From NCBI GenBank assembly GCA_011391085.1, contig JAABRD010000018.1, positions 1-64,000 of the forward strand: a stretch of DNA of 64,000 nucleotides. The letters are read 5' to 3'. The position numbers were made by a program, and so were the translations under genes. Origin of the DNA: Thiotrichaceae bacterium. GTDB lineage: Bacteria; Pseudomonadota; Gammaproteobacteria; Beggiatoales; Beggiatoaceae. The notes under the pieces are model-generated. The model did no database searches. It worked only from the letters and a program-made list of their open reading frames with translations, and had not been told where the DNA came from. Each line of letters starts with the position of its first letter. The stretch's first letter is position 1. This document shows, in pieces, positions 25,627-38,000 of this stretch.

Positions 25627-28515
25627 TTATCTAACTCCATGCCATTCAGGTAACTCAGGTGGACTGGGATAGCCGGAAAGACTTAAATGGGCCGTACCTG
25701 CCTTCTCGTTATCACTGTCTCGAAGCGACACTGAAACAGTGGGTAATTCAGGAAGTTCTTTGGTTACAGAACCTTCGTAATAGTCATTTCCCCAATCATA
25801 CTCGGTTACCTTAATACGAACAGTTACCTTGTCGTAAGGCTTTGCCGACAGAAAACCGCTACGCAGAGTTCCTGTTGATGAGTAAGATTCAGATTTCATC
25901 CCCTGGGCCGCCGCAATGACTGAACCATTCCAAGAAACACTAACATCCATTTCACTACTCTTTATTTCCCAGTCAATTCTCACTACTAACTGGATGTCGA
26001 TTGTGGCATTAGGGTCTATCTTACCCAAATAATCCTTGTAAGCTGCCACCTCCTGCTGCATGGTTTTCAGTGGTGCATCTTGCAGATATTTATCAAGATG
26101 TTCCACATCGCGGTATTTTTTAGCCACTTCATACCATTGTTGATCTTCTCTCGCATCGATCTGACGTTGCAACTCCGCTACTTTGACTTGGCCTTCGACA
26201 GACTGTAAGTCTGGCGGAAACTGGGCATAATCCTTGATGAATCGGTGGGCGTCATTAAAACGGTTATCTTGAAGCGCTTGTGCCACTCTTTCCGCGATTT
26301 GTTGGACTACCATTGTTTTGAACGTTTCTTTTAACTGATTTACCTGGTCACCCCCTGGGCGATTAGTCAGAGACTGGGCGGCTTCCGAGAAATTCCCAGA
26401 CTGCATATTGTTCTGGTAACCTTGATAAAACTGTTCCCAATCCCGTTGAGTGGCTACTTCTATCAGTCGCTTTGACAGTTGTTGATCCAGGGCAATTCGT
26501 TGAGTACGCATGTCCTCGGTTTCTACTTCAAGATGCTTAGGCAACGTGCGTAACTCCGCCAAAATTTGGTTGAGTTTATCTGGGTTTTGCAGATTTTCTT
26601 GCATGAGACTGGCAATTTGACGAACTGCCTCTTCATCTGCTTTGCGAAATTCGATAACCTCTTGTTGACGGGCAAACAATCGCTGTTCTAAGCCCGTTCG
26701 TTGGCCACGCATGTCCTCGGTTTCTACTCCAGGATGCTTAGGCAACGTGCGTAACTCCGCCAAAATTTGGCTGAGTTTATCTGGGTTTTGCAGATTCTCT
26801 TGCATGAGACTAGCAATTTGACGAACCGCCTCCTCGTCTGCTTTGCGAAACGCGATAATCTCTTGTAGGCGAGTAGACAGTTGTTGATCCAAGGCAATTC
26901 GTTGAGTACGCATGTCCTCGGTTTCTACTTCAGGATGCTTAGGCAACGTGCGTAACTCCACCAAAATTTGGTTGAGTTTATCTGGGTTTTGCAGATTCTC
27001 TTGCATGAGACTGGTAATACGCCGAACCGCTTCGCTATCTTCTCTCATCGACAGTTCATTCTTAGCCTGGAGTCCGATAGAACGTGCATCTACCGAATGT
27101 GTCCCATAACGATAGGAACGCAAATATGCCTCAGCATGGGTTGCGGCTGCTTGTAAATTGTTAGTCGCCACCGCCTTAGTTACCAACTCCCACAAGACGT
27201 TCTCTCGACGGTGTTGCAAATCGGCCAAAATATTTTCAGCCCGTTCTTGACTTAAAAAGGTTACATACGAAACCCGATGCTGAAAATAAGAGACTTTAAC
27301 ATATTTGTCGAACCAACTTTCAGCACTTTCCAGTTGTTGATCGGTTACCTGTGGATTGGCCGTCGTTACTTGGTGCTGACGATATTGAACATAATCCACT
27401 GTCGTTTCCGCTACTAACCCCAAAACAACAGTGGCAACACTGGTCCCCAACCAAGTTAACATTGTCTCTTTGCGACATTGTTGCAAGACCTTTTCAACCT
27501 GTTTCGCTGGTTCGGAACCGACCGGGAAGCGGTTTAACAATTCTGAACCCACTTTCCAACAGCGACGCCAATTTTTCTTGGCCAGATAGTCCTGTAAATC
27601 AATGGCATCGCGCCGTTGGGCTATCCAAATAAAGGCATCTTCTAACCCAAAAGACTGTAAGGGCACTGTTTGCAGAGGACGTTCCTCCACCTCGCCATTC
27701 TCTAGTCGCAAAAATTGACTGGGCCCTAACGCACTGACCGGAAATTCCTTAAAATTGCCCTCGGTCACGGAAGAGTGCAACACATCACGGAGTCCTCGAT
27801 GCGGGGGCGAAGGACTAGAACTGAGAAGTTCTTCCAACTTGCTATGTTCAAGTTCGGGATTGTTAAAATCTATCTGACTGTATCTATCCCACTTATTGAC
27901 CAACAACGCCACGGGCACGGGTAATGCCGCGCCTTTTTGTTTTTCACCGCGCAACAAGGTGAAGGACTGACTTAAATTATACAAGTTCTTATGCGCTTGT
28001 CTATACCGAGTCTTTTGCGATCCTTGGTGATGACCTAACATATCCCGATAAGGTGCTTCTGCAAGCACTAAAATGCCATCCATTTCCGTAAAGCGGTGTT
28101 GCAGATTTTTGGCAATTTCAGAACTACTGCACGTTGGATCAATCAACTCGCCTGAATAGTCCACCAATTCAATTCGAAAAGATTGATGAGTGGCGATGGT
28201 GAAATCATAATCAAACATGAAATGTTGATCGCCCTTTGAATTCGGCGGTGGAACGTCGCCGTTAGACAGATTATTAGTGGCTTGTGCCATCCAGTCTTTA
28301 TTGCGCTGTAAAGTTACCGCACGTTCATCGGGCTTATTTTTCTTACCTTTGGTAACTGGCACCTCAATGGGTCGCCAGGTACAGGTATGTCCCAATGGAT
28401 GTGGATCCCGCGGCATAGCCAATGCGGCCAGCACACAAGTTTTACCAGAGGCCGACAGTCCATAGACCGCTAGACGATAGACCTTTTTAGGTTGTTTGGA
28501 TTTGTTATGGTTCAT
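25627..28515 (-). CDS. membrane-anchored TRAFAC-type GTPase with 67-aa repeats
   Basis: A 962-residue protein. The N-terminal GTPase domain has G1 GLSASGKT (19-26), G3 DYSG (119-122), G4 NKWD (207-210) and G5 SAL (261-263). One membrane helix lies at about 352-368. Three tandem 67-residue repeats (about 495-690, core SLMQENLQNPDKLxQIL) and a C-terminal beta domain follow, predicted to be periplasmic. The layout of cytoplasmic GTPase, helix and long extracytoplasmic part recalls TssM/IcmF of type VI secretion, but I see no sequence match to it. It is the core of a cluster with a WXG100-like and two other membrane proteins. A role in a membrane complex is inferred. Confidence 0.7.
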   Translation of the reverse strand: MNHNKSKQPKKVYRLAVYGLSASGKTCVLAALAMPRDPHPLGHTCTWRPIEVPVTKGKKNKPDERAVTLQRNKDWMAQATNNLSNGDVPPPNSKGDQHFMFDYDFTIATHQSFRIELVDYSGELIDPTCSSSEIAKNLQHRFTEMDGILVLAEAPYRDMLGHHQGSQKTRYRQAHKNLYNLSQSFTLLRGEKQKGAALPVPVALLVNKWDRYSQIDFNNPELEHSKLEELLSSSPSPPHRGLRDVLHSSVTEGNFKEFPVSALGPSQFLRLENGEVEERPLQTVPLQSFGLEDAFIWIAQRRDAIDLQDYLAKKNWRRCWKVGSELLNRFPVGSEPAKQVEKVLQQCRKETMLTWLGTSVATVVLGLVAETTVDYVQYRQHQVTTANPQVTDQQLESAESWFDKYVKVSYFQHRVSYVTFLSQERAENILADLQHRRENVLWELVTKAVATNNLQAAATHAEAYLRSYRYGTHSVDARSIGLQAKNELSMREDSEAVRRITSLMQENLQNPDKLNQILVELRTLPKHPEVETEDMRTQRIALDQQLSTRLQEIIAFRKADEEAVRQIASLMQENLQNPDKLSQILAELRTLPKHPGVETEDMRGQRTGLEQRLFARQQEVIEFRKADEEAVRQIASLMQENLQNPDKLNQILAELRTLPKHLEVETEDMRTQRIALDQQLSKRLIEVATQRDWEQFYQGYQNNMQSGNFSEAAQSLTNRPGGDQVNQLKETFKTMVVQQIAERVAQALQDNRFNDAHRFIKDYAQFPPDLQSVEGQVKVAELQRQIDAREDQQWYEVAKKYRDVEHLDKYLQDAPLKTMQQEVAAYKDYLGKIDPNATIDIQLVVRIDWEIKSSEMDVSVSWNGSVIAAAQGMKSESYSSTGTLRSGFLSAKPYDKVTVRIKVTEYDWGNDYYEGSVTKELPELPTVSVSLRDSDNEKAGTAHLSLSGYPSPPELPEWHGVR
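26431..27033. repeat. three 201-bp in-frame tandem repeats
   Basis: Three units of 201 bp inside the GTPase gene, each encoding a 67-residue helical repeat. The units are very similar at the DNA level, pointing to recent duplication and possible length variation. Confidence 0.8.
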
Positions 28516-28537
28516 TGTTTCTCTGTTATGTTGTTAG

Positions 28538-28622
28538 TTTGGGGGGCAACGTGGTTTCTCGTTGGCCCACCCAAGCCCACTTTACAAGATAAATGGTGGG
28601 CAACAAAAGGACGTTGCCCGCC
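28538..28622. repeat. GTGGGCAAC palindrome
   Basis: A diverged copy of the GTAGGGTGGGCAAC element lying between the winged-helix gene and the GTPase gene, so the upstream half of the cluster may have its own termination or processing point. Confidence 0.6.
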
Positions 28623-28673
28623 CCACACCGGCTTCAGGTCAAGTCTATTTCTCCAAATCTCCATAAGAATATT

Positions 28674-28946
28674 TTAAGCCGCTTTGGCCATCATGCGACC
28701 CACCAGGAGTTGCCGTCCCGTCTCCGTAATGAGATATTTGGAAGTATTTTGATTCTCCACCGTGTCCCGTGTCAAGTAGCCCTCTTTCACCAAAGCCTGC
28801 AAAACGTGATATGGAGGAGGTATGGGTGCCACCTCAAGTTGGTCTATATGTCTAACAATGTTATGCCACGTTAGAACTCCATTGTGTTTGGCCACATAGT
28901 CGAGGATTTTCCAAGCGGATTGGAAAGATAAGCAAGCATCGTTCAT
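28674..28946 (-). CDS. small winged-helix protein
   Basis: A 90-residue protein with a winged-helix pattern: AWKILDYVAKHNGVLTWHNI, a recognition helix region PPYHVLQALVKEGYL and a wing NTSKYLITETGRQLL. This is typical of PadR/MarR-like DNA-binding modules. It lies three bases after the coiled-coil gene and precedes the GTPase gene. It could regulate the cluster. No ligand domain is present. Confidence 0.6.
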   Translation of the reverse strand: MNDACLSFQSAWKILDYVAKHNGVLTWHNIVRHIDQLEVAPIPPPYHVLQALVKEGYLTRDTVENQNTSKYLITETGRQLLVGRMMAKAA

Positions 28947-28949
28947 AAT

Positions 28950-29906
28950 TTATTCATCCTGTGTGGTTGGGTGGTACAAGTCTTTGTCGGTAAGACGATA
29001 TTCCTCTAAGGTTGCGGTATGCGTGTTATTCCATAAATCCTGCGCAACGTCTGGATCATCTGGTATACCAACCTTATATCCAAGAGATTCGTAATGTTGA
29101 AATTCTCGAATCTCATGCGTGTAGAAATTGATGTCATAAGCAGTTGGTGAAAGGGTGTTATTCAAGATCATTTTCAACCGGTTAATCATTCTAATATTTG
29201 GAATATAAGGGTCGAACCGTTCTACATGTTCTTTGACTTTTGCAACACCTTCTGGTGTTATCTTCACTCCTGCGGTAGAGAGTTTCTGCAAAGGTAATTT
29301 CAGTTGTTCTGGAAAAAAGGGGCGTCCACTACAAATACCTACGTGCGAACCAAACTGTTTCTGCCAATCCGCTGTTAAAGGTCTTGTAAAACATTCAAGA
29401 GTTTCCTTTGACCAGCCTTTTTCCAAGGTTCCACCCGTGATTTTTTGCCTAATTGGAATGACTGTTGCGGTCATTCTCGGCGCGGGAGGACTGGTCGCAA
29501 AATATTCCTCCAACTTGGCAACTGTATCTTCAAGGACTTGGGTAACCTCCTCATCCAATTGCGCTTTCATTCGAACGGCTTGCCGTTGATACTCTGAAAT
29601 AGCCTCCTCTATTCGCCGTTTCCAACTCAGGAAATTATCAAATTGTTCCTGTGCCTCTTTAAGTTGATCATAAGCGTCTGAACGGGCATCATCATCCAGC
29701 GAGTCATGCGCATGTGCCTGAAGAATAGCCTCTTGACAAAATTCCAATTGGCGTATATAGCCAAGTTGGGTTTCTTCAAGCCATTCTTGAATTTGCAGGA
29801 TTTTGAAAGCAACTGCCTCCAGTACCTCTCCCATATCACCATGGAATTGGGTGAGACGGGCTTTCAAAATGGCGATGGCTTCAGTGTTTCCATAAACCGG
29901 GTTCAT
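28950..29906 (-). CDS. coiled-coil protein with unknown C-terminal domain
   Basis: A 318-residue soluble protein. Residues about 15-140 are a long helical hairpin (LEAVAFKILQIQEWLEETQ, then AYDQLKEAQEQFDNFLSWKR), similar in style to the long helical N-termini of proteins paired with WXG100 partners. From about 155 a mixed alpha/beta domain follows, ending in a region rich in aromatic and acidic residues (FYTHEIREFQHYESLGY). It starts four bases after the stop of the WXG100-like frame. It could be the effector or partner carried by the WXG100 protein. No family recognised. Confidence 0.6.
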   Translation of the reverse strand: MNPVYGNTEAIAILKARLTQFHGDMGEVLEAVAFKILQIQEWLEETQLGYIRQLEFCQEAILQAHAHDSLDDDARSDAYDQLKEAQEQFDNFLSWKRRIEEAISEYQRQAVRMKAQLDEEVTQVLEDTVAKLEEYFATSPPAPRMTATVIPIRQKITGGTLEKGWSKETLECFTRPLTADWQKQFGSHVGICSGRPFFPEQLKLPLQKLSTAGVKITPEGVAKVKEHVERFDPYIPNIRMINRLKMILNNTLSPTAYDINFYTHEIREFQHYESLGYKVGIPDDPDVAQDLWNNTHTATLEEYRLTDKDLYHPTTQDE

Positions 29907-29909
29907 AGT

Positions 29910-30175
29910 TCATCGTGTTCGGTTGAGGTATTCGCGCAACACAGCAACTTGGTGCCCCAAAAATGGAATAAACTGATCGGCGGTTTCTAAAAAATGTTCA
30001 ACCATCTGTTTGGTCTGCGTATACTCTTCGGCAAATTGTTGATATTGCCAGGTACCCTCAGGTTTCCAAGTGCGCCATCCAATTGAGATATATTCTGTCT
30101 CAATTGGTCATTGAAATATTGGAGATGTTGGGCAAAACGTTCAATATCATCAAGGTCTGCAATGGCTTGTGACAT
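29910..30175 (-). pseudogene. WXG100-like protein, one frameshift
   Basis: The start at 30175 has GAGGA nine bases upstream and reads MSQAIADLDDIERFAQ and LQYFNDQLRQNISQLDG. At about 30077-30085 the frame must shift by one base, after which the DNA encodes WRTWKPEGTWQYQQFAEEY and FLETADQFIPFLGHQ, ending at TGA 29910. Together this is an 88-residue two-helix protein with the W-x-G-like turn of the WXG100/ESAT-6 superfamily. As written the gene is broken. A single sequencing error would restore it, so it may be functional in the cell. Confidence 0.65.
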
Positions 30176-30280
30176 GTCAAATTTCCTCAAGTGTTTGTTT
30201 TTTCAACGGTGGTGTTTTGATTAAAGACGATTATGGCTTATATTATACCCTAAATTTGGAGAAAACAACATCAATTTAAG

Positions 30281-30446
30281 TAGAGTGGCCATGCAGTTTC
30301 TCGTTGACCACCAAAGTAGGCTACTAAAGGGGCCATTGTCCGCCCTCTACATCTATGGCATTCCCGTTGCCAAAGACAATCTTCCCGTGACATACTTATG
30401 CAAGATACTCCTGGCCAAAGATTGATAAGAAATACCTTCCGCCATG
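30281..30446 (-). pseudogene. antitoxin C-terminal fragment beside a GTGGGCAAC palindrome
   Basis: Positions 30353-30446 on the minus strand encode MAEGISYQSLARSILHKYV and end with TGMP and a stop. This is a near copy of the C-terminus of the antitoxin at 31410. Positions 30281-30349 carry a diverged GTAGGGTGGGCAAC palindrome. The fragment and the full antitoxin flank the HigBA pair as direct repeats. Confidence 0.7.
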
Positions 30447-30490
30447 GAAAGCATTGCTTTGGCCATCTCAAAATGGATGCTTTGGCTATT

Positions 30491-30943
30491 TCATAAAAAA
30501 ACCGCCGGTGACACCCCAAAACGTTCCCCCAACTCGCAAATTTGCCGGGAGTTTAGCAACTGTTTTCCATTTAAAATCTCCTCTACCACAAAGTGGTCCC
30601 CCAACTCTGGTAAATCATGGGACGTTAACTCGTTTTGTTCCATCAGAAACTGTAACACCTCCTCCCCAGTCACTTCTGGCTTCGAATAATGTTCAGTTTC
30701 ATATTGTTCAATTAGCACTCGTAGAGTTTCCAGCAAACCTATCCAAGGATGAGTTTCATCGTCGGGGACCACTTCCAACAAGTGGTCAAATAAGGCTAAC
30801 AGACGTTGATATTCAGTGTTTGAATGGGGGACCCTCAATACTTGAGACAGAGGAGACCAGCTATTTATCAAATGACTGATTAATTCAGAAAGAGACAGTT
30901 GTTGAAGCGGTGCCACTAGCGTTTCGGTGGGGTAAAACATCAT
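30491..30943 (-). CDS. higA: HigA-family antitoxin (HigB2/HigA2 type)
   Basis: A 150-residue antitoxin. The first 40 residues are a variable helical extension. The rest matches the HigA type with ALFDHLLEVVPDDETHPWIG and the HTH VLQFLMEQNELTSHDLPELG, VVEEILNGKQLLNSRQIC, and the conserved ending RFGVSPAVFL. It follows higB by 20 bases. AGAGG precedes the ATG. It should neutralise HigB and repress the operon. Confidence 0.85.
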   Translation of the reverse strand: MMFYPTETLVAPLQQLSLSELISHLINSWSPLSQVLRVPHSNTEYQRLLALFDHLLEVVPDDETHPWIGLLETLRVLIEQYETEHYSKPEVTGEEVLQFLMEQNELTSHDLPELGDHFVVEEILNGKQLLNSRQICELGERFGVSPAVFL

Positions 30944-30963
30944 CGTAAAGGCCTCTCATTATT

Positions 30964-31266
30964 TTATCTATCGCATTCGGTTTTCCACTGACCCATATCA
31001 TACTCGGCATGAGTCATGACCGATTTAATATAAACCGTTTGAATACTATACAGAATTTTTACAATCACTCGGACTTTGTTACCGCCCACATTGAACACGA
31101 CACATTTTCCGACCTGGTCCACACTGTTTGAAAAGGTACGACGTAATTCCTCAAAATTTTGAAAGTGTGCTTTACTCAAAGTTTTATACCAACGTTCTAA
31201 AGCCGTTTTCGTGGTGGAGTGGTGCTGGCTAAATTCTCGCAGTTTGGCATAAGCAATGACGTGCAT
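30964..31266 (-). CDS. higB: HigB-type mRNA interferase (pfam HigB_toxin)
   Basis: A 100-residue toxin. The family motifs are MHVIAYAKLREFSQHH, LERWYKTLSKAHFQNFEELR, GKCVVFNVGGNKVRVIV and MTHAEYDMGQWK. The start at 31266 (AGGTGA upstream) fits the family; the frame extends 41 codons further upstream without similarity. It cleaves ribosome-bound mRNA. Toxin-first order with HigA. Intact. Confidence 0.88.
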   Translation of the reverse strand: MHVIAYAKLREFSQHHSTTKTALERWYKTLSKAHFQNFEELRRTFSNSVDQVGKCVVFNVGGNKVRVIVKILYSIQTVYIKSVMTHAEYDMGQWKTECDR

Positions 31267-31409
31267 TAAAGATTCACCTGGGCTGTCGTTATCAGGATAA
31301 GAAACAGTGTAGCATGAAAAATTTAAAATGGTCAACAAGGGGTTGAGGGCGGAATGGATTTTGTCAGTAGTTAATAAAACGGAATCCATTTGGTGCCCCC
31401 ATCAACCAA

Positions 31410-31694
31410 TTATGATATTCCCGTTGCCAAAGACCATCTTCCCGTGACATACTTGTGCAAGATACTCCTGGCCAAAGATTGATAAGAAATACCTTCCGCC
31501 AAGGCCAGGATCTGTAACGCTTCCCAATCATTTTCAGAAATAACCAAATGGAGGTCTTTCTGACTTTCCAAGGTGTATCTAGCATATTCTTGCAACTCTT
31601 GCGTGCGGTCGGCTAATTGACCCTTGGACTGCCATTCACCACGTTCAAACGAGTCTAGCAAATGTTGTTCTTCTGAAGTTAACTCAATCATCAT
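31410..31694 (-). CDS. orphan CopG/BrnA-like antitoxin
   Basis: A 94-residue protein. The C-terminal ribbon-helix-helix segment (ALAEGISYQSLARSILHKYV, TGRW) is typical of BrnA-like antitoxins, and the N-terminus (LTSEEQHLLDSFERGEW) is a helical toxin-binding part. No toxin gene is adjacent upstream; that space holds a palindrome. The start at 31694 is preferred because the longer frame begins in repeat DNA. A duplicate of its 3' end lies at 30353-30446. Confidence 0.7.
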   Translation of the reverse strand: MMIELTSEEQHLLDSFERGEWQSKGQLADRTQELQEYARYTLESQKDLHLVISENDWEALQILALAEGISYQSLARSILHKYVTGRWSLATGIS

Positions 31695-31820
31695 GATGCA
31701 CCGCCTAAATAGTTTTTGAGGGTGGGCCACGCAGTTTCTCGTGACTCACCCTATATCATCGGAATTACCTCAACCGTTCCAGTTCCCAAACTTTACCAAC
31801 CGGGCAACGAGAACTTCGAG

Positions 31821-32027
31821 TTAAGCCACCATCTCTGAGTCTGGTAGGGGTGGATTTGACGTTGGCAACGGCTTACGATACCGGGGTGGTCGAGAGACCA
31901 CGGGGCGATTTTGTAATTGCTGTTGTTCCTGATAATATTTACCCAAAGCATAGACATCATAGTTAAATTGGGCCGCCAGTTTGGCACTGTGTATACGAAT
32001 TTCTTCCACAATCGGGTCAATCCACAT
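31821..32027 (-). CDS. small TA-associated protein, 68 aa
   Basis: A 68-residue protein that begins MWIDPIVEEIRIHSAKLAA, followed by FNYDVYALGKYYQEQQ. I recall this pattern in small proteins encoded beside TA loci in cyanobacteria and sulfur bacteria. A perfect AGGAGG lies six bases before the ATG. The C-terminal part is proline-rich and likely disordered. Function unknown; antitoxin-like by context. Confidence 0.6.
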   Translation of the reverse strand: MWIDPIVEEIRIHSAKLAAQFNYDVYALGKYYQEQQQLQNRPVVSRPPRYRKPLPTSNPPLPDSEMVA

Positions 32028-32096
32028 AGTTAACCTCCTAAAACAAATTCAGTCTCTCAGGACTGGCAGTCCTAACGTCCCCCGTCCATTCAGTCA

Positions 32097-32187
32097 AGGT
32101 GGGGTGGGCAAGTGTTTATTGGTCTGCCGACCTCTAATTCAATTCTTCAAAGTGGTGGGCAACGATAAACTTGTTGTCCACCCTACA
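32097..32187. repeat. GTGGGCAAC palindrome
   Basis: Arms AAGGTGGGGTGGGCAAG and TTGTCCACCCTACATAG with an inner GTGGGCAACG. Another member of the GTAGGGTGGGCAAC family, between two small TA-type genes. Confidence 0.7.
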
Positions 32188-32200
32188 TAGACTAAACAAA

Positions 32201-32467
32201 CTAGAGATTAGCCTGAAGACGAGATGACCGCTGGCTAGTCAAAGCCACAATCTCGACTTGTCGTTGTTGTGCTTGGGCTTCTTGAACTAGACATTCGATG
32301 CGTTGTGCGGTTTGGTGGTCAAGCCATTCTTCACCACATAATTCACAAATCTGTGCCGGAACTTGTCGAATCACAATGAGACTACTACCCAAGTCAACCG
32401 TGGTGGTGGTATAACCAAAAACTTTTTGGCCACCACATAAAGCGCAAAAATTTACTAAGGGATTCAT
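32201..32467 (-). CDS. YgiT/MqsA-type zinc-finger antitoxin
   Basis: An 88-residue protein with two zinc-binding pairs, CALCG (8-12) and CELCGEEW (about 40-47), the hallmark of the YgiT/MqsA N-terminal domain, and a short C-terminal helix. It lacks the full HTH domain of E. coli MqsA. Its start overlaps the stop of the DUF4258 gene by four bases. It is predicted to mask the partner toxin. Confidence 0.78.
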   Translation of the reverse strand: MNPLVNFCALCGGQKVFGYTTTTVDLGSSLIVIRQVPAQICELCGEEWLDHQTAQRIECLVQEAQAQQRQVEIVALTSQRSSRLQANL

Positions 32468-32805
32468 TGAGTTTTCCTCGTTTTATAATCGGCTTCAAAA
32501 TAGTCTAAACTGGGTTGATAAGCCGTGATAATATAAACCATTTCATTGCACTCATCAACCGCGGCGACTACGTGCAATGGTATTCCTTCATGCCACCCTA
32601 GAAATAAGGCACTTGGATAAGGTCGGTCTTCTGGGTAATCTCGAACACGTTCTCCCAACCGCAACACTTCCAACACCGCCGATTGTCGAATATTACGTTG
32701 GAGTAAGCGTGAAAGGGTGTGATTCCGCCATTCGATGCGATTTTGTCGCAAAGCCTTTTGTAAGGCTTGGTCATTGAGTATTTTAGGGTTAGAATCGGTC
32801 ATCAA
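32464..32805 (-). CDS. DUF4258 toxin
   Basis: A 113-residue protein of the DUF4258 family (RelE/MqsR-like fold). It has LSRLLQRNIRQSAVLEVL, then DYPEDRPYPSALFLGW and the strand pair LHVVAAVDE and MVYIITAYQP with the terminal YFEADYKTR. Such proteins are predicted mRNA interferases paired with YgiT-type antitoxins, with the toxin gene first as here. The gene is intact. Confidence 0.8.
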   Translation of the reverse strand: MMTDSNPKILNDQALQKALRQNRIEWRNHTLSRLLQRNIRQSAVLEVLRLGERVRDYPEDRPYPSALFLGWHEGIPLHVVAAVDECNEMVYIITAYQPSLDYFEADYKTRKTQ

Positions 32806-32881
32806 TTTACCTGTTTTATCTGGTTCTCATATCCACCGGCTGAAGCCTCTAGTCCGGCGATTATTCCTTGTCTAGTCCATT

Positions 32882-34567
32882 TTACTCCATCCCACTCGCA
32901 TTCATCAACCACCACGCCGATATATTTTTTTGCCAGGCGGTCTGGTCTGGTGGTCTGAATCCTGTAACGACCATAGATTCTGCCTCCTCTCCCAACTGTT
33001 CCAACTCGGCTCCCGTTGCTTGATTAGCACTGTTGGCAAAAAACTGACTAACTAACTGGAGAGAGTCTTTCAGATGACTTTGCTGAAAACGAATGACCAC
33101 GGTGGCATCACGACGCATAAACAATCGTGGTTCTAATCCCACGGCTTTGAAACTTTGTCGATTCAAAACGGGACTGGCTTTTTTAAACAAAAATTGCGTG
33201 ACCGGGGTGATGTTAAAGTTTTGTGGTTCAACAACGTGTGCTTTGGCAAATTGTTGCAATTTGGTAAATAAGTCGTGTTTGACCCAGGAGTGAAGCGATT
33301 GTTCCGAGGCTTTTTCGGCCACCTTCTGGCCTAGTTTTTTCTCCATCAGCTGCCGGGCCGTTGTTTTTACCGCCGCTTTGGCCGCTGATTTAGCGACAGT
33401 TTTGGCACTACTGGTCAAAGCGGTGGCAGCACCAAAGGTGAAAATCGTCACCGCTAAATCTCCCATATCAGCCGTCGCAAAGGCTAAATCTCCTCCTGTC
33501 ACTCGACGACCCTGGGCGAATTTGCCAATGACACTGAGTGCGTCATAGCCAGGCACGTTGCTGAGAAGACCGCCAGACTTAGGATTTAATTCGTCGTTTA
33601 AGGCTGAATCACTGAGAGAAGCGTAATATTCCAACTCACTCGGATAATTAGCCCCTGCGTTGGCTAATCCTTCATAGAGTTTTGGGGTTAAGTCGGCTGG
33701 TAAGCGGAAGAATAACTGTTGAAACAAGGGTGTACGTCCCCATTCCAATAAGGCTACTAGCGTGTTTTCGTCGTCATTTAACACAGCATCAATAAAGGCT
33801 AGATGCAAGGATTTGGGATAAGCCTCGTTCCCAAATAGCACATCCGCCGGTGAATAACCTAAGCCACTTTTTGCGCCCCATTTGTTTAGCAATGCTTCGC
33901 CTTGGGGTAACGCTAATAAATCCCACAAGTGCGAGTCATTGACATAAAATTCAAGCGGTTGTTGACCGTGATTGACTACGCGCATGAATTTGGGCCATAA
34001 TTCTTGACGAAACGTGTAGCGAAAGGATTCCTTGTCAATCATTTGACTACGAAGGCTGGCGCCTTGTTCAAATAAGAAATTGAGGAGGGAACTTAATTGT
34101 TCCTCAGATTGCCCCAGGGTGTCATTTAACACTTCGGCTAACCAACGTTCATATTCTGCGGCGCCAGGATTATTGCGTGGAAATAGAAACAGGGCTTGAC
34201 TGCCTATTAGGCCACGTCGGGCGAGTCGGCAAATTAGGTTTCTATTTTTTTCAAGGGCTTGGGCCAGGGCAATGGCTTCGTCGCGGGCCGCATGTTGCAC
34301 AAACAGGCCCGTGATAACGTCATAACATTCGTCATTTATGAGGGATTTGGTAAAACGAGTTGGGGTGTCTGCCAAAACCAGAAGAGAAGCCGTTTCAGGA
34401 TGTTTTTCAATCCAGGGCATCCATTGCGGATGTTTTCCTAAGTTTTGCAACAAATAGCGTTGCTTTTCTAGGAGTTGCGGAGAGTTTTGTTGCAGAATTT
34501 GAAACCAGTCGGCATTAAGTGCAACAACTGTTTCAGCGGCAGTAGGAGTCCAGCCCGCTTGACTCAA
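32882..34567 (-). CDS. large protein, phase-variable 5' end (main frame)
   Basis: This continuous frame of 561 codons begins at a TTG without a clear ribosome site. It is soluble and helical with no recognised family. An Ala-rich hydrophobic helical zone at about 350-400 (LAVTIFTFGAATAL, then a KSAAKAAVK basic stretch) could insert in membranes, and two polar regions flank it. Upstream the same frame is open for 31 more codons and then enters a TTGTG tandem array. The natural start seems to be ATG 34806, encoding a membrane anchor, which is joined in frame only if the repeat number is 9 or 12. Here it is 10, so the gene is in the OFF phase. ON product length would be about 639 residues. Confidence 0.6.
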   Translation of the reverse strand: MSQAGWTPTAAETVVALNADWFQILQQNSPQLLEKQRYLLQNLGKHPQWMPWIEKHPETASLLVLADTPTRFTKSLINDECYDVITGLFVQHAARDEAIALAQALEKNRNLICRLARRGLIGSQALFLFPRNNPGAAEYERWLAEVLNDTLGQSEEQLSSLLNFLFEQGASLRSQMIDKESFRYTFRQELWPKFMRVVNHGQQPLEFYVNDSHLWDLLALPQGEALLNKWGAKSGLGYSPADVLFGNEAYPKSLHLAFIDAVLNDDENTLVALLEWGRTPLFQQLFFRLPADLTPKLYEGLANAGANYPSELEYYASLSDSALNDELNPKSGGLLSNVPGYDALSVIGKFAQGRRVTGGDLAFATADMGDLAVTIFTFGAATALTSSAKTVAKSAAKAAVKTTARQLMEKKLGQKVAEKASEQSLHSWVKHDLFTKLQQFAKAHVVEPQNFNITPVTQFLFKKASPVLNRQSFKAVGLEPRLFMRRDATVVIRFQQSHLKDSLQLVSQFFANSANQATGAELEQLGEEAESMVVTGFRPPDQTAWQKNISAWWLMNASGME

Positions 34568-34647
34568 GTGGGATGTTAACTCGTTTTGGAGAGGATTTGG
34601 TTTAGAAGTGGGTGAAAGTGTATTTTTTTGTTGACTGTTGTTTGTTT

Positions 34648-34806
34648 CTATGCTATACTGTTGTGTTGTGTTGTGTTGTGTTGTGTTGTGTTGTGTTGTG
34701 TTGTGTTGTGTGTGGGATTATTAATTTCAAAAATCCCCGTTTCATTAGCTACAAAAATTACCACTGCAATGACTGCAATAATCAGAATAAATTTTGGCGT
34801 TAGCAT
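34648..34806 (-). CDS. N-terminal membrane anchor of the phase-variable gene (OFF-phase peptide)
   Basis: ATG 34806 is preceded by AGGTGA with six-base spacing. It starts a hydrophobic segment (residues 5-20, KFILIIAVIAVVIFVA), then ETGIFEINNPT and an HNTTQ repeat from the TTGTG array, and hits TAG at 34648 after 52 codons. With one repeat fewer it would read on into the 561-codon frame at 34567. The frame calculation was done directly: ATG to main frame is 239 bases at 10 copies and 234, divisible by three, at 9. Confidence 0.7.
   Translation of the reverse strand: MLTPKFILIIAVIAVVIFVANETGIFEINNPTHNTTQHNTTQHNTTQHNSIA
34661..34710. repeat. ten perfect TTGTG pentanucleotide repeats (contingency tract)
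   Basis: Ten exact copies lie within a coding start region on the minus strand (unit CACAA, encoding the period-five HNTTQ). Pentamer tracts inside 5' coding regions change frame by slipped-strand mispairing, as in Neisseria opa genes. All three frames stay open through the tract; only one stays open after it. Confidence 0.85.
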
Positions 34807-35008
34807 AATTGTTCACCTGTGGATAAGTTAAATTCAGAAAGCCAGGACTGAGACTTTTAACAGGATATTAGGATTAAAATGAGTTGTCAAGTGGGGAAGG
34901 AAAAAAATTTTGGCAGGGAGTTAAATAGGTGATTCATAATATTCTAATATGATTTATATGAGGTGTGGAACTTCTTTTTTTTGCTCAAGATGTATCCATA
35001 GAGGGATT

Positions 35009-35055: not shown

Positions 35056-38000
35056 TTATTTCACCTCCCCCAATTCCGCCGTCGCCCCATTTTGCATGAC
35101 GACAAATGGGCGAAATTCGGATTGGATGCCTCCTTGATTGGGAACATAACGGAGAACATGTACGAGACCCATTCCGTAACCCATCGGTCCCATGTTATAG
35201 TAGTTCGCTTCAACCTTATAGGGAAACGCTTTGGGGTTGGGAATAGTAAAACATTCGGGGCCATAACCGGTGGTAATGTCCGCGTAGAGAGTGCCTCCGG
35301 TGGGTAATGCAGGTTGCGAATAAAACGCATGGTTTTGCTTCTTGTCATAGAGGTGAAAATCGACATCGTTGGCATCGGTTTCCCACATCAGCACAAAACG
35401 CAATTGTGGTTGTGTCACCTTGTCCCAATTAGCTGGTTTAACACTTCCCAAAGTGTCCAGCATATCGCGTTTTTCCAAGGTCGTTAGCATCAAAGCCATG
35501 GTTTCTTGGAGAATGCGTTGGATGTGTAAAAACCGCGGGTCAAATTGTCGTTGTAAGGCAGTTTGCAACGTCTCTATCGCTTCCTTATACTGTCTTCCTT
35601 CCCAATAGGCCAGGGCTAACAAGTAATGACCAGAAGGATGATCTGGGCGTTGTTCGACGGCTTTTTTGAACGTGTCGATGCTTAACCATGATTCGGTTTT
35701 GAGAGATAACAGTCTTTCGCCAGTCCAGCGACGCATGTCGGCACGGGCGGGGAAGTAGTCTATTAAAGAACCATAAGCGCGGGCCGCTTGAGTGGTGTCA
35801 CCCATTTTGGCATACCATTCGCCCAAGGCAATCAATGCCATGAGGTCTGCCAGATCAGTTTGTCGCCAGGCTTGAACGATTTTACCGGCACCGTTTAAGT
35901 CACCTTTGTCAAGCAAGTTACGAAATTCGGCATAGTGGCCGGTCCAGGCGGAAATGGGAGACGATTCTACTCTCTGTTCCGAATCCCCGGTCTGTACGTC
36001 TAATTCAGGCGTCGCCATTGATCGGACTTCATCGGGTGCTTCCATTCTGGAGGCCTCCATAATGGTCTCTTCTCTTGTCTCCTCCCTCCGGGAGGCTTCT
36101 AAGGGTAGTGACGCACCGTCGAACCTATCCGATTCTTCCCATGAGGCTGGCGGCGGCGGTATTTCGGGGGCCATTTGGGGTACAGATTCAGACAAACCGA
36201 TAGCATTGGCCTTTCCACTTTGCGCGGTGGTGGCTTCGTCGCTATCCGCTTTTTTATACATGTCGACATCTTCTTTGGCATCGACGTTCTTCTCTTCTTC
36301 CTTACCTTTATCTTTGGCAGCCTCCCCTTCTATTTCCTGTTTGCGACCAACATTGGCCTGCATGGCTTCGTTACTTTCAGAACCCACCGACTGCGGTTTA
36401 TTCTCTGAGACTGAGGGGGCTGGAGGAGAAGCGGGGGAAGCAGTGGAATCGCCGTTGCTGGGACGTGGACGAGTTTTAGAGGCTGCCAATGGCATTGGAC
36501 GGTCTTCAATCATGGGTGAAGGCGGTGGTGGAACTTCCAGGCCAGCGCGTTTGATGACGGTTAAACCGTCTATTCCTACCGTCAAAATGTCGCTGAGGGC
36601 TTGACGGTCAATATTATATCGACGATAATCTTCTTCGGTTTCCAACACCAGCAGAGAAGTATAGGGCGATAAAACTCTTTCTTTTACAGAAAGATGAGTG
36701 ACTTCATTGTGATAGGCACTTTTTAAATCTTTATCTGGGGTCGTGTCTTCCATGTCAAGTAGTCTATCGATGCGGGCGCGGCTCCATTCGCGTTTCAGTA
36801 AAATGGGATGCACCGGTTGTGGAGTGATAGAAAACGTTTGATCGGCCACTTGAATCGTGATCGGTTTGGCTTCTGGGGAAGCGGTGGGGGCTTGAGAGGA
36901 CAAGTCTGCAAAAATGATGAGTGGTTCATTGGCTTGCAAACTTTCCACTGTGGCGGGCCAAGACCAGGTGGCGTCCGTGACCGTGATGGGGAGGTCAGCA
37001 TAGACGCGATGGAGGAGTTTCTGTGCGAGTTGAACATCGCTAAGAGATTGTATAGAAGCGACCATTCCCGTGGTTTTCCCGGCGGCAACTAATTTGGTGG
37101 CCAACGATTTATTGCTATGGTAAGAGGGAATGAGAACATCTAAGCGGTCTAGCCAGGGAATCGTTTTAAACTGTTGAACCAGCATGGTTGCTGAGGTTTC
37201 GCCGGCGGTGATGACCAGGTCTGAAATCAGTAAGATTCTGGCGTGGTTTAGTTTTAAGTCTTTCAGAGGAGCCGCGACGGCGTCCAAACGAGAGGCGCCT
37301 AACGTGGGATACTCTTGCAATTTTTGCAAAAGGGGTAACTGGGTAGCAGAGGAGGTTGCAGTACCCACTTTGGTCACGATTTGGTCAAAGGTGTAGATTT
37401 CTAACTTTTCCACTTTTAACAGCGGTAACAGGGCTTTCAATCGCTTCACCGTGTCAGACCAAAATGGGGCTTGTGAGGCGGAGGTGTCTAGCAAGATGAC
37501 TAACGTTGACAGGGAAGAGGGCGTGGTTGGAGAGGATGTTGATGATTCTGGGAACGGGATAATTTTGGCAGCCACCAGTTGTTCACTACGCAGGGCCAGA
37601 CGGTCTGCTTGACTGGGTTGATAGGGCATTTTAAAATCGTCGGTGGGTTGATAGTCGCGTTTATCCACCGTGAGAACGTCACGTTTCGAAACCGTAGCGG
37701 AGAGGGCGCCTAGTTGAGTCGGTTGACGCGGGTTAAAAGAGTTGCTATCATAAAAGACTCGAATCAGTAACTGCTGAAGTTTGGGAAGTCCCTTGAGGGG
37801 CAACACGTAGTCCTGGGTGAGGCGTTGGGAATAGGAGAGGATCAGGAGTTTTTCGGATTGCGGTTCAATTGGAAAAATTCTGGCGTTGAATCGGTTACCA
37901 CTGTCGGTTTCTAACAAAGCGGGGTCTTGCCGACGGTGGAGAAAGTCTTCATAAGCCCGTCGGGCTTGTTGTTTTTCGACAATTTCACCTTCTTGCAGGG

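Follow-up and report, generated by a model that had tools for sequence, protein, structure and literature searches.

The pentanucleotide tract at positions 34661-34710 of the window (the whole 64,000-nucleotide stretch of Thiotrichaceae bacterium DNA analysed here) is best interpreted, with somewhat better than even confidence, as part of a translational phase-variation (contingency) locus that would be OFF in the assembly. DNA polymerase would slip on the CACAA array and thereby add or remove five-base units, each unit gained or lost shifting the reading frame. Copy numbers divisible by three would yield a helical protein fused to a membrane anchor (ON), and at all other copy numbers translation would end just behind the anchor (OFF), so that the assembled genome with its ten copies would represent an OFF allele. 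We infer the slippage in living populations, its reversibility and its benefit. Most likely this is a known mechanism acting in a new gene family that has no match in the databases. The features concerned are the following:

34862..34890, minus strand: sigma-70-like promoter TTGACA-17-TATCCT, a consensus match and not proof of function
34711..34806, minus strand: ATG start and membrane anchor at the N-terminus (MLTPKFILIIAVIAVVIFVANETGIFEINNPT); in the related loci L033, L034, L035, L036 and L037 anchor and core share one frame
34661..34710, minus strand: (CACAA)10 pentamer tract (TTGTG on the plus strand), located in the linker that connects the anchor with the core
34648..34806, minus strand: 52-codon frame read from ATG 34806 at ten copies, stop included
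32882..34717, minus strand: main frame of 611 open codons plus stop; the core is formed by the 561 codons from TTG 34567
28516..32881, minus strand: segment between the core gene and the 962-residue gene, containing a DUF4258 gene and another with weak similarity to MqsA (below the Pfam cut-off)
25627..28515, minus strand: gene whose 962-residue product has a Walker-A-like motif, GLSASGKT (recognised by eye)

The tract and the split reading frame

The ten perfect repeats of the preliminary description were confirmed by counting and by Tandem Repeats Finder, which places the tract at 34659-34711 with 10.6 copies and 100% match. ATG 34806 is likewise present with AGGTGA at 6 nt spacing upstream, and modelling of the frame over 0-15 CACAA copies bore out the stop after 52 codons at ten copies. 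The main frame differs in phase from the ATG 34806 frame at ten copies and contains no ATG, GTG or TTG from its upstream stop (34720-34718) to TTG 34567. Within the modelled range anchor and core are joined at 0, 3, 6, 9, 12 and 15 copies only, i.e., the copy number chooses between a full-length protein and an early stop. Nine copies yield the 639 residues given earlier, but twelve yield 644 and not the same 639. The tract is a non-triplet repeat between start codon and main frame, and its site lies within coding sequence because the gene of the nearest relative (L033) is fused there. It was also claimed that all frames are open through the tract. This is true, but automatic, because no frame of a CACAA repeat contains a stop, and we dropped it as evidence for a contingency locus.

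A promoter search of the region found four sites against 1.3 expected. The 3' end of the match TTGACA-17-TATCCT lies 56 bases ahead of ATG 34806, and TTGACT and TATCAT of L033 align with it. L033 does not share the AGGTGA of the window and has TTATCCATAAAAATT ahead of its ATG.

Exact CACAA arrays of five or of three copies were not found elsewhere in the 5.77 Mb assembly of the window's genome. A sample of 2,657,323 bases of this genome (46%; 5,238 masked) contains perfect pentamer arrays of three (8), four (1), seven (1) and ten copies (1), of which the ten-copy array is the window tract and the seven-copy array a relic of the same locus. Tetramer arrays of the same sample have three (74), four (2) and nine copies (1). 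Besides the window tract and the (AAAAC)7 relic, only (ACAG)9 reaches at least five copies, and the window tract is an outlier among the 4- and 5-mers of this sample. Modelling of a 740 kb sample as an order-3 Markov chain gave no pentamer array of at least three copies in three runs; the real 740 kb sample has one three-copy pentamer array in addition to the window tract.

Heptamer arrays, however, are frequent in the 46% sample (159 with at least three copies, 23 with at least five, the longest with 14). This abundance speaks against uniqueness of the tract, and this genome may have a general mutational tendency to grow arrays. Frames were read, three each, for ten of 16 heptamer arrays of at least five copies, and seven later arrays were only listed; two of the ten are in frame within long frames, most others stand just before long frames, and we accepted no switch among them. 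The in-frame cases, with CTATCCG/CTATCCA units inside long open frames, are located at L087:15280-15328 and L091:8502-8536 (contig C85), where gain or loss of one unit would break the frame. The longest heptamer arrays are (GGATAGT)14 (L166:12542-12639, contig C69) and (CCACTAT)9 (L171:15788-15850, contig C56), and (TCCATTC)8 at L165:10104-10159 (contig C68) precedes a frame open for 419 codons.

Two other sites of the same genome resemble the window locus. (ACAG)9 at locus L089 (contig C85, tract 90540-90575) begins 21 bases behind ATG 10519, which has the Shine-Dalgarno sequence AGGAGA, and separates it from an intact 2275-codon RCC1-repeat frame (L089:10519-17252). The frame of this ATG differs in phase from the long one and stops after 20 codons; the long frame has an upstream TTG (10425) clear of the tract, and its true start is not proven. 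We regard this array as a second switch candidate. A run of 12 G at L124:798-809 (contig C53, 140798-140809), in an apparent hydrophobic-protein gene, separates two frames, that of ATG 299, closed by a stop after 183 codons, and one open for 575 codons. The two halves presumably belong to one gene, and the run is a candidate for either a third switch or a homopolymer error; a search for relatives of this gene was swamped by TPR matches. Both candidates are out of frame, like the window locus, and as putative switches they make a general repertoire of slippage switches more likely than a single accident.

Anchor and core in related genomes

Homologues are patchily distributed and occur in 12 of the 57 genomes searched, including the window's own. 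A scan of the named genomes gave 17 loci from genomes titled Thiomargarita, Thioploca, Candidatus Parabeggiatoa or Thiotrichaceae; the relatives compared are represented by one genome per species. The nearest relative found, L033 of Thiomargarita sp. SulCav_PC08_66, matches the window's core at 94% identity across the full 561 residues and encodes one unbroken protein of 629 residues, beginning MLTPKFTLIIAVIAIVIFVANETGIFEGNNPAENTIQQYSIETN. A translated search with the intact protein matched the window in two frames which meet at the tract. Four further loci (L034, L035, L036 and L037) encode unbroken anchor-core fusions with 44-47% identity to the L033 protein. The membrane anchor consequently belongs to the long frame, as had been proposed, given the whole gene of L033 and these in-frame fusions.

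N-termini were compared for 16 of the 17 loci, i.e., all but the C-terminal fragment L045. Anchor and core are in frame in six of the seven anchored loci: complete in L033-L037, and with stop codons later in the gene in L038 (T. nelsonii). The seventh, L039 (SulCav_FS08_3), is 78% identical over 225 residues; its frame is broken at the same site as the window tract, its match ends at residue 227 and the gene is truncated. The nine further loci have signal-peptide-like N-termini, as judged by eye, and the homologue in genome G022 is split.

The conserved TATAGC is directly preceded by (CACAA)10 CAG in the window and by (TACAA)2 CAG in L033. L037 (Ca. Parabeggiatoa sp. nov. 3) has CACAA CACAT CACAA CACAA CAG in this place, with four units and in frame, and L039 has (CACAA)2 TGATGATAGC, with two units and out of frame. 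(AAAAC)7 AAAT precedes TATAGC in L193, a copy on contig C78 of the window's own genome. This copy (L193:15089-15593, about 35089-35593 of the contig) is a dead duplicate of the promoter-anchor-linker region: promoter-like and linker regions are kept, the start codon carries an insertion and no match to the core was found there. Evolutionary change of the unit number is thus supported between species and copies (L033 2, L039 2, L037 4, L193 7, window 10), with the reservation that the two-unit cases are weakly periodic. Single-base shuffles (500 each; five periods tried per linker, nine linkers) reached period 5 in none of 500 cases for the window, L037 and L193, and gave p 0.036 for L033 and p 0.076 for L039. 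Period 5 was not detected by this test in the linkers of L034, L035, L036 and L038 (p 0.25-0.57). Other periods stood out in L036 (period 4, p 0.002) and L038 (period 6, 0/500). Six AGATAA units are found in this linker of T. nelsonii (L038:5806-6006), where the frame is kept.

Short arrays thus grow repeatedly in this linker, the pentamers being either one old array or several new ones. Long pentamer arrays also arise or persist here without function, as (AAAAC)7 in the dead copy L193 shows.

The core consists of a helical domain and a conserved C-terminal motif around NxSAWW, and has no match in Pfam, NCBIfam or PADLOC (model alignment of 13 of the 17 loci plus the window, leaving out L038, L039, L045 and L047). 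The structural model of the L033 protein has a mean pLDDT of 57.7, with a low-confidence helix at 5-22 and a helical domain at about 61-400 (block pLDDT 62-91), the linker being unstructured and the C-terminal part unreliable; the best Foldseek hit to this model has E 0.33, and none reaches 0.001 or less. The domain probably lies outside the cytoplasm, because a lysine precedes and acidic residues follow the anchor and because the second subfamily has signal-peptide-like N-termini, both judged by eye. The 3' end of the core recurs in SulCav_PC08_66 as two 60-base end pieces and a 133-residue C-terminal fragment (L033:9145-10139, L045:6001-6399), and these tail pieces lie close to segments matching the window at 31.8-32.2 kb, which looks like a joint duplication of tail and modules.

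Compared with L033, the core has no stop or indel in 561 codons and differs by 51.5 synonymous and 36.5 nonsynonymous changes (dN/dS 0.187, with 78% of sites nonsynonymous). The downstream frame is thus intact and under purifying selection, with the window branch alone contributing 12 changes. Polarised with L039 over 225 codons, this branch has six synonymous and six nonsynonymous changes (binomial p 0.03 against a neutral expectation of 78% nonsynonymous); outside this count, 12 synonymous and 5 nonsynonymous changes are unassigned, and 12.5 and 6.5 fall on the relative's branch. The linker behind the tract evolves fast (dN/dS 0.77, 31 codons). Synonymous divergence is uneven, with dS of 0.86 in the anchor (31 codons) versus 0.15 in the core, and recombination may have kept the core young.

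The homologue of the 962-residue gene directly follows the anchored gene in three genomes (G016, G031 and G032), and its product is a possible functional partner of the anchored protein. The segment 28516..32881 is not present between the two genes in these genomes. The window's 962-residue gene lies about 4.4 kb downstream of the core, behind small toxin-antitoxin-like genes; a DNA match to it is located about 3.3 kb downstream of the core in L033, and none was found in the 16 kb examined near the SulCav_FS08_3 locus. The 962-residue protein has no Pfam P-loop match, and its first 328 residues have no solved relative (best E 0.52). A tandem repeat of period 201 with 2.7 copies (26483-27030) lies inside this gene.

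Switch, decay or error

The preliminary reading of a phase-variable protein in the OFF state is supported in its frame break, its anchor and its copy-number arithmetic, all in the light of the intact L033. However, two facts also fit simple decay: the SulCav_FS08_3 locus is both out of frame and truncated, and (AAAAC)7 stands in the dead copy, where switching serves no purpose. The main rival, which we consider a real possibility though short of an even chance, is accordingly a recent one-way inactivation, in which a slippage-prone linker expanded out of frame and left a dead gene that has not yet gathered further damage. The broken orthologues of SulCav_FS08_3 and T. nelsonii agree with it, as do the dead 5' duplicate with its own seven-unit pentamer array, the extra segment that separates the core from the 962-residue partner gene and the patchy occurrence of homologues (12 of 57 genomes, own included). 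The heptamer arrays are common in the genome and therefore slightly raise this alternative. Against it, 561 codons have neither stop nor indel and dN/dS is low, although the low value for the whole branch is compatible with very recent inactivation. A frameshift moreover needs far fewer than ten perfect copies, an array of this length should remain unstable, and an out-of-frame array of nine tetramers is equally placed in the intact 2275-codon frame.

Draft assemblies can miscount repeats, and a true count of nine or twelve would leave the gene intact. We regard such an assembly or sequencing error as improbable, as ordinary short reads are longer than the tract of 50-53 bases; a perfect non-triplet array of 9-12 copies in a coding frame would be a slippage site in any case. 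Equally hard to sustain, and if anything the most doubtful of the alternatives, is the idea of two products by design, an anchor peptide and a core protein started at TTG 34567, with the repeat as a spacer. The 561-codon frame does open with this TTG, but no clear Shine-Dalgarno sequence precedes it, most other relatives carry LIKAGW or a similar sequence and no start at its position, and the five complete anchored relatives are fusions.

Phase variation, the reading we prefer, has against it that the two units of L033 are presumably too few to slip often. A much wider version appears unlikely to us, in which several genera of giant and filamentous sulfur bacteria would have kept a pentameric contingency site of ancient origin whose unit drifted (CACAA, TACAA, CAAAA) and which would belong to a wider set of switchable exported proteins in this lineage. 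Polyploidy has been proposed for Thiomargarita. If the cells are polyploid, a single cell could hold alleles of several lengths, which would make the site a dosage dial and not an on/off switch.

Comparison with known systems

Most known cases of repeat-driven phase variation come from host-adapted bacteria. If the phase-variable reading is true, it would suggest that envelope switching pays in mats and biofilms too, e.g., against phage or predators, and the tract would provide a marker of envelope switching that can be counted in reads from uncultured populations. In the tetranucleotide contingency loci of Haemophilus influenzae the reading frame depends on tetramer arrays; the (ACAG)9 locus of the window's genome is like these loci in its layout and differs from them in gene content.

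Similar in layout are the opa genes of Neisseria, in which a CTCTT pentamer array in the code of the leader peptide restores or disrupts the frame by its copy number, with switching reported at about 1e-3 per cell per generation (PMC3745409). As far as this account goes, both systems have a pentamer array in the 5' coding part of a gene for an exported protein (in the window, a predicted one), whereas repeat unit, gene family and lineage are different. The opa array lies in the leader code, and the window array follows the anchor, in what a low-confidence prediction shows as a linker. An outer-membrane beta-barrel homologous to Opa was not found: the protein has no Pfam or NCBIfam match, and the L033 model is helical without strands (mean pLDDT 57.7).

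Titles and abstract openings of the open-licence literature yielded no repeat-driven phase-variation locus for Beggiatoa, Thiomargarita, Beggiatoaceae or sulfur-oxidizers, and the passages of two of these papers mention phase variation in general terms only (PMC4679880, PMC4853749). TAACTGA and other heptamer repeats of Beggiatoaceae are, by the title of the report, intergenic with possible regulatory roles (PMC4679880). As far as this source describes them, they share with the window tract the tandem arrangement of short repeats and the bacterial family, but unlike these intergenic heptamers the pentamer of the window splits a reading frame.
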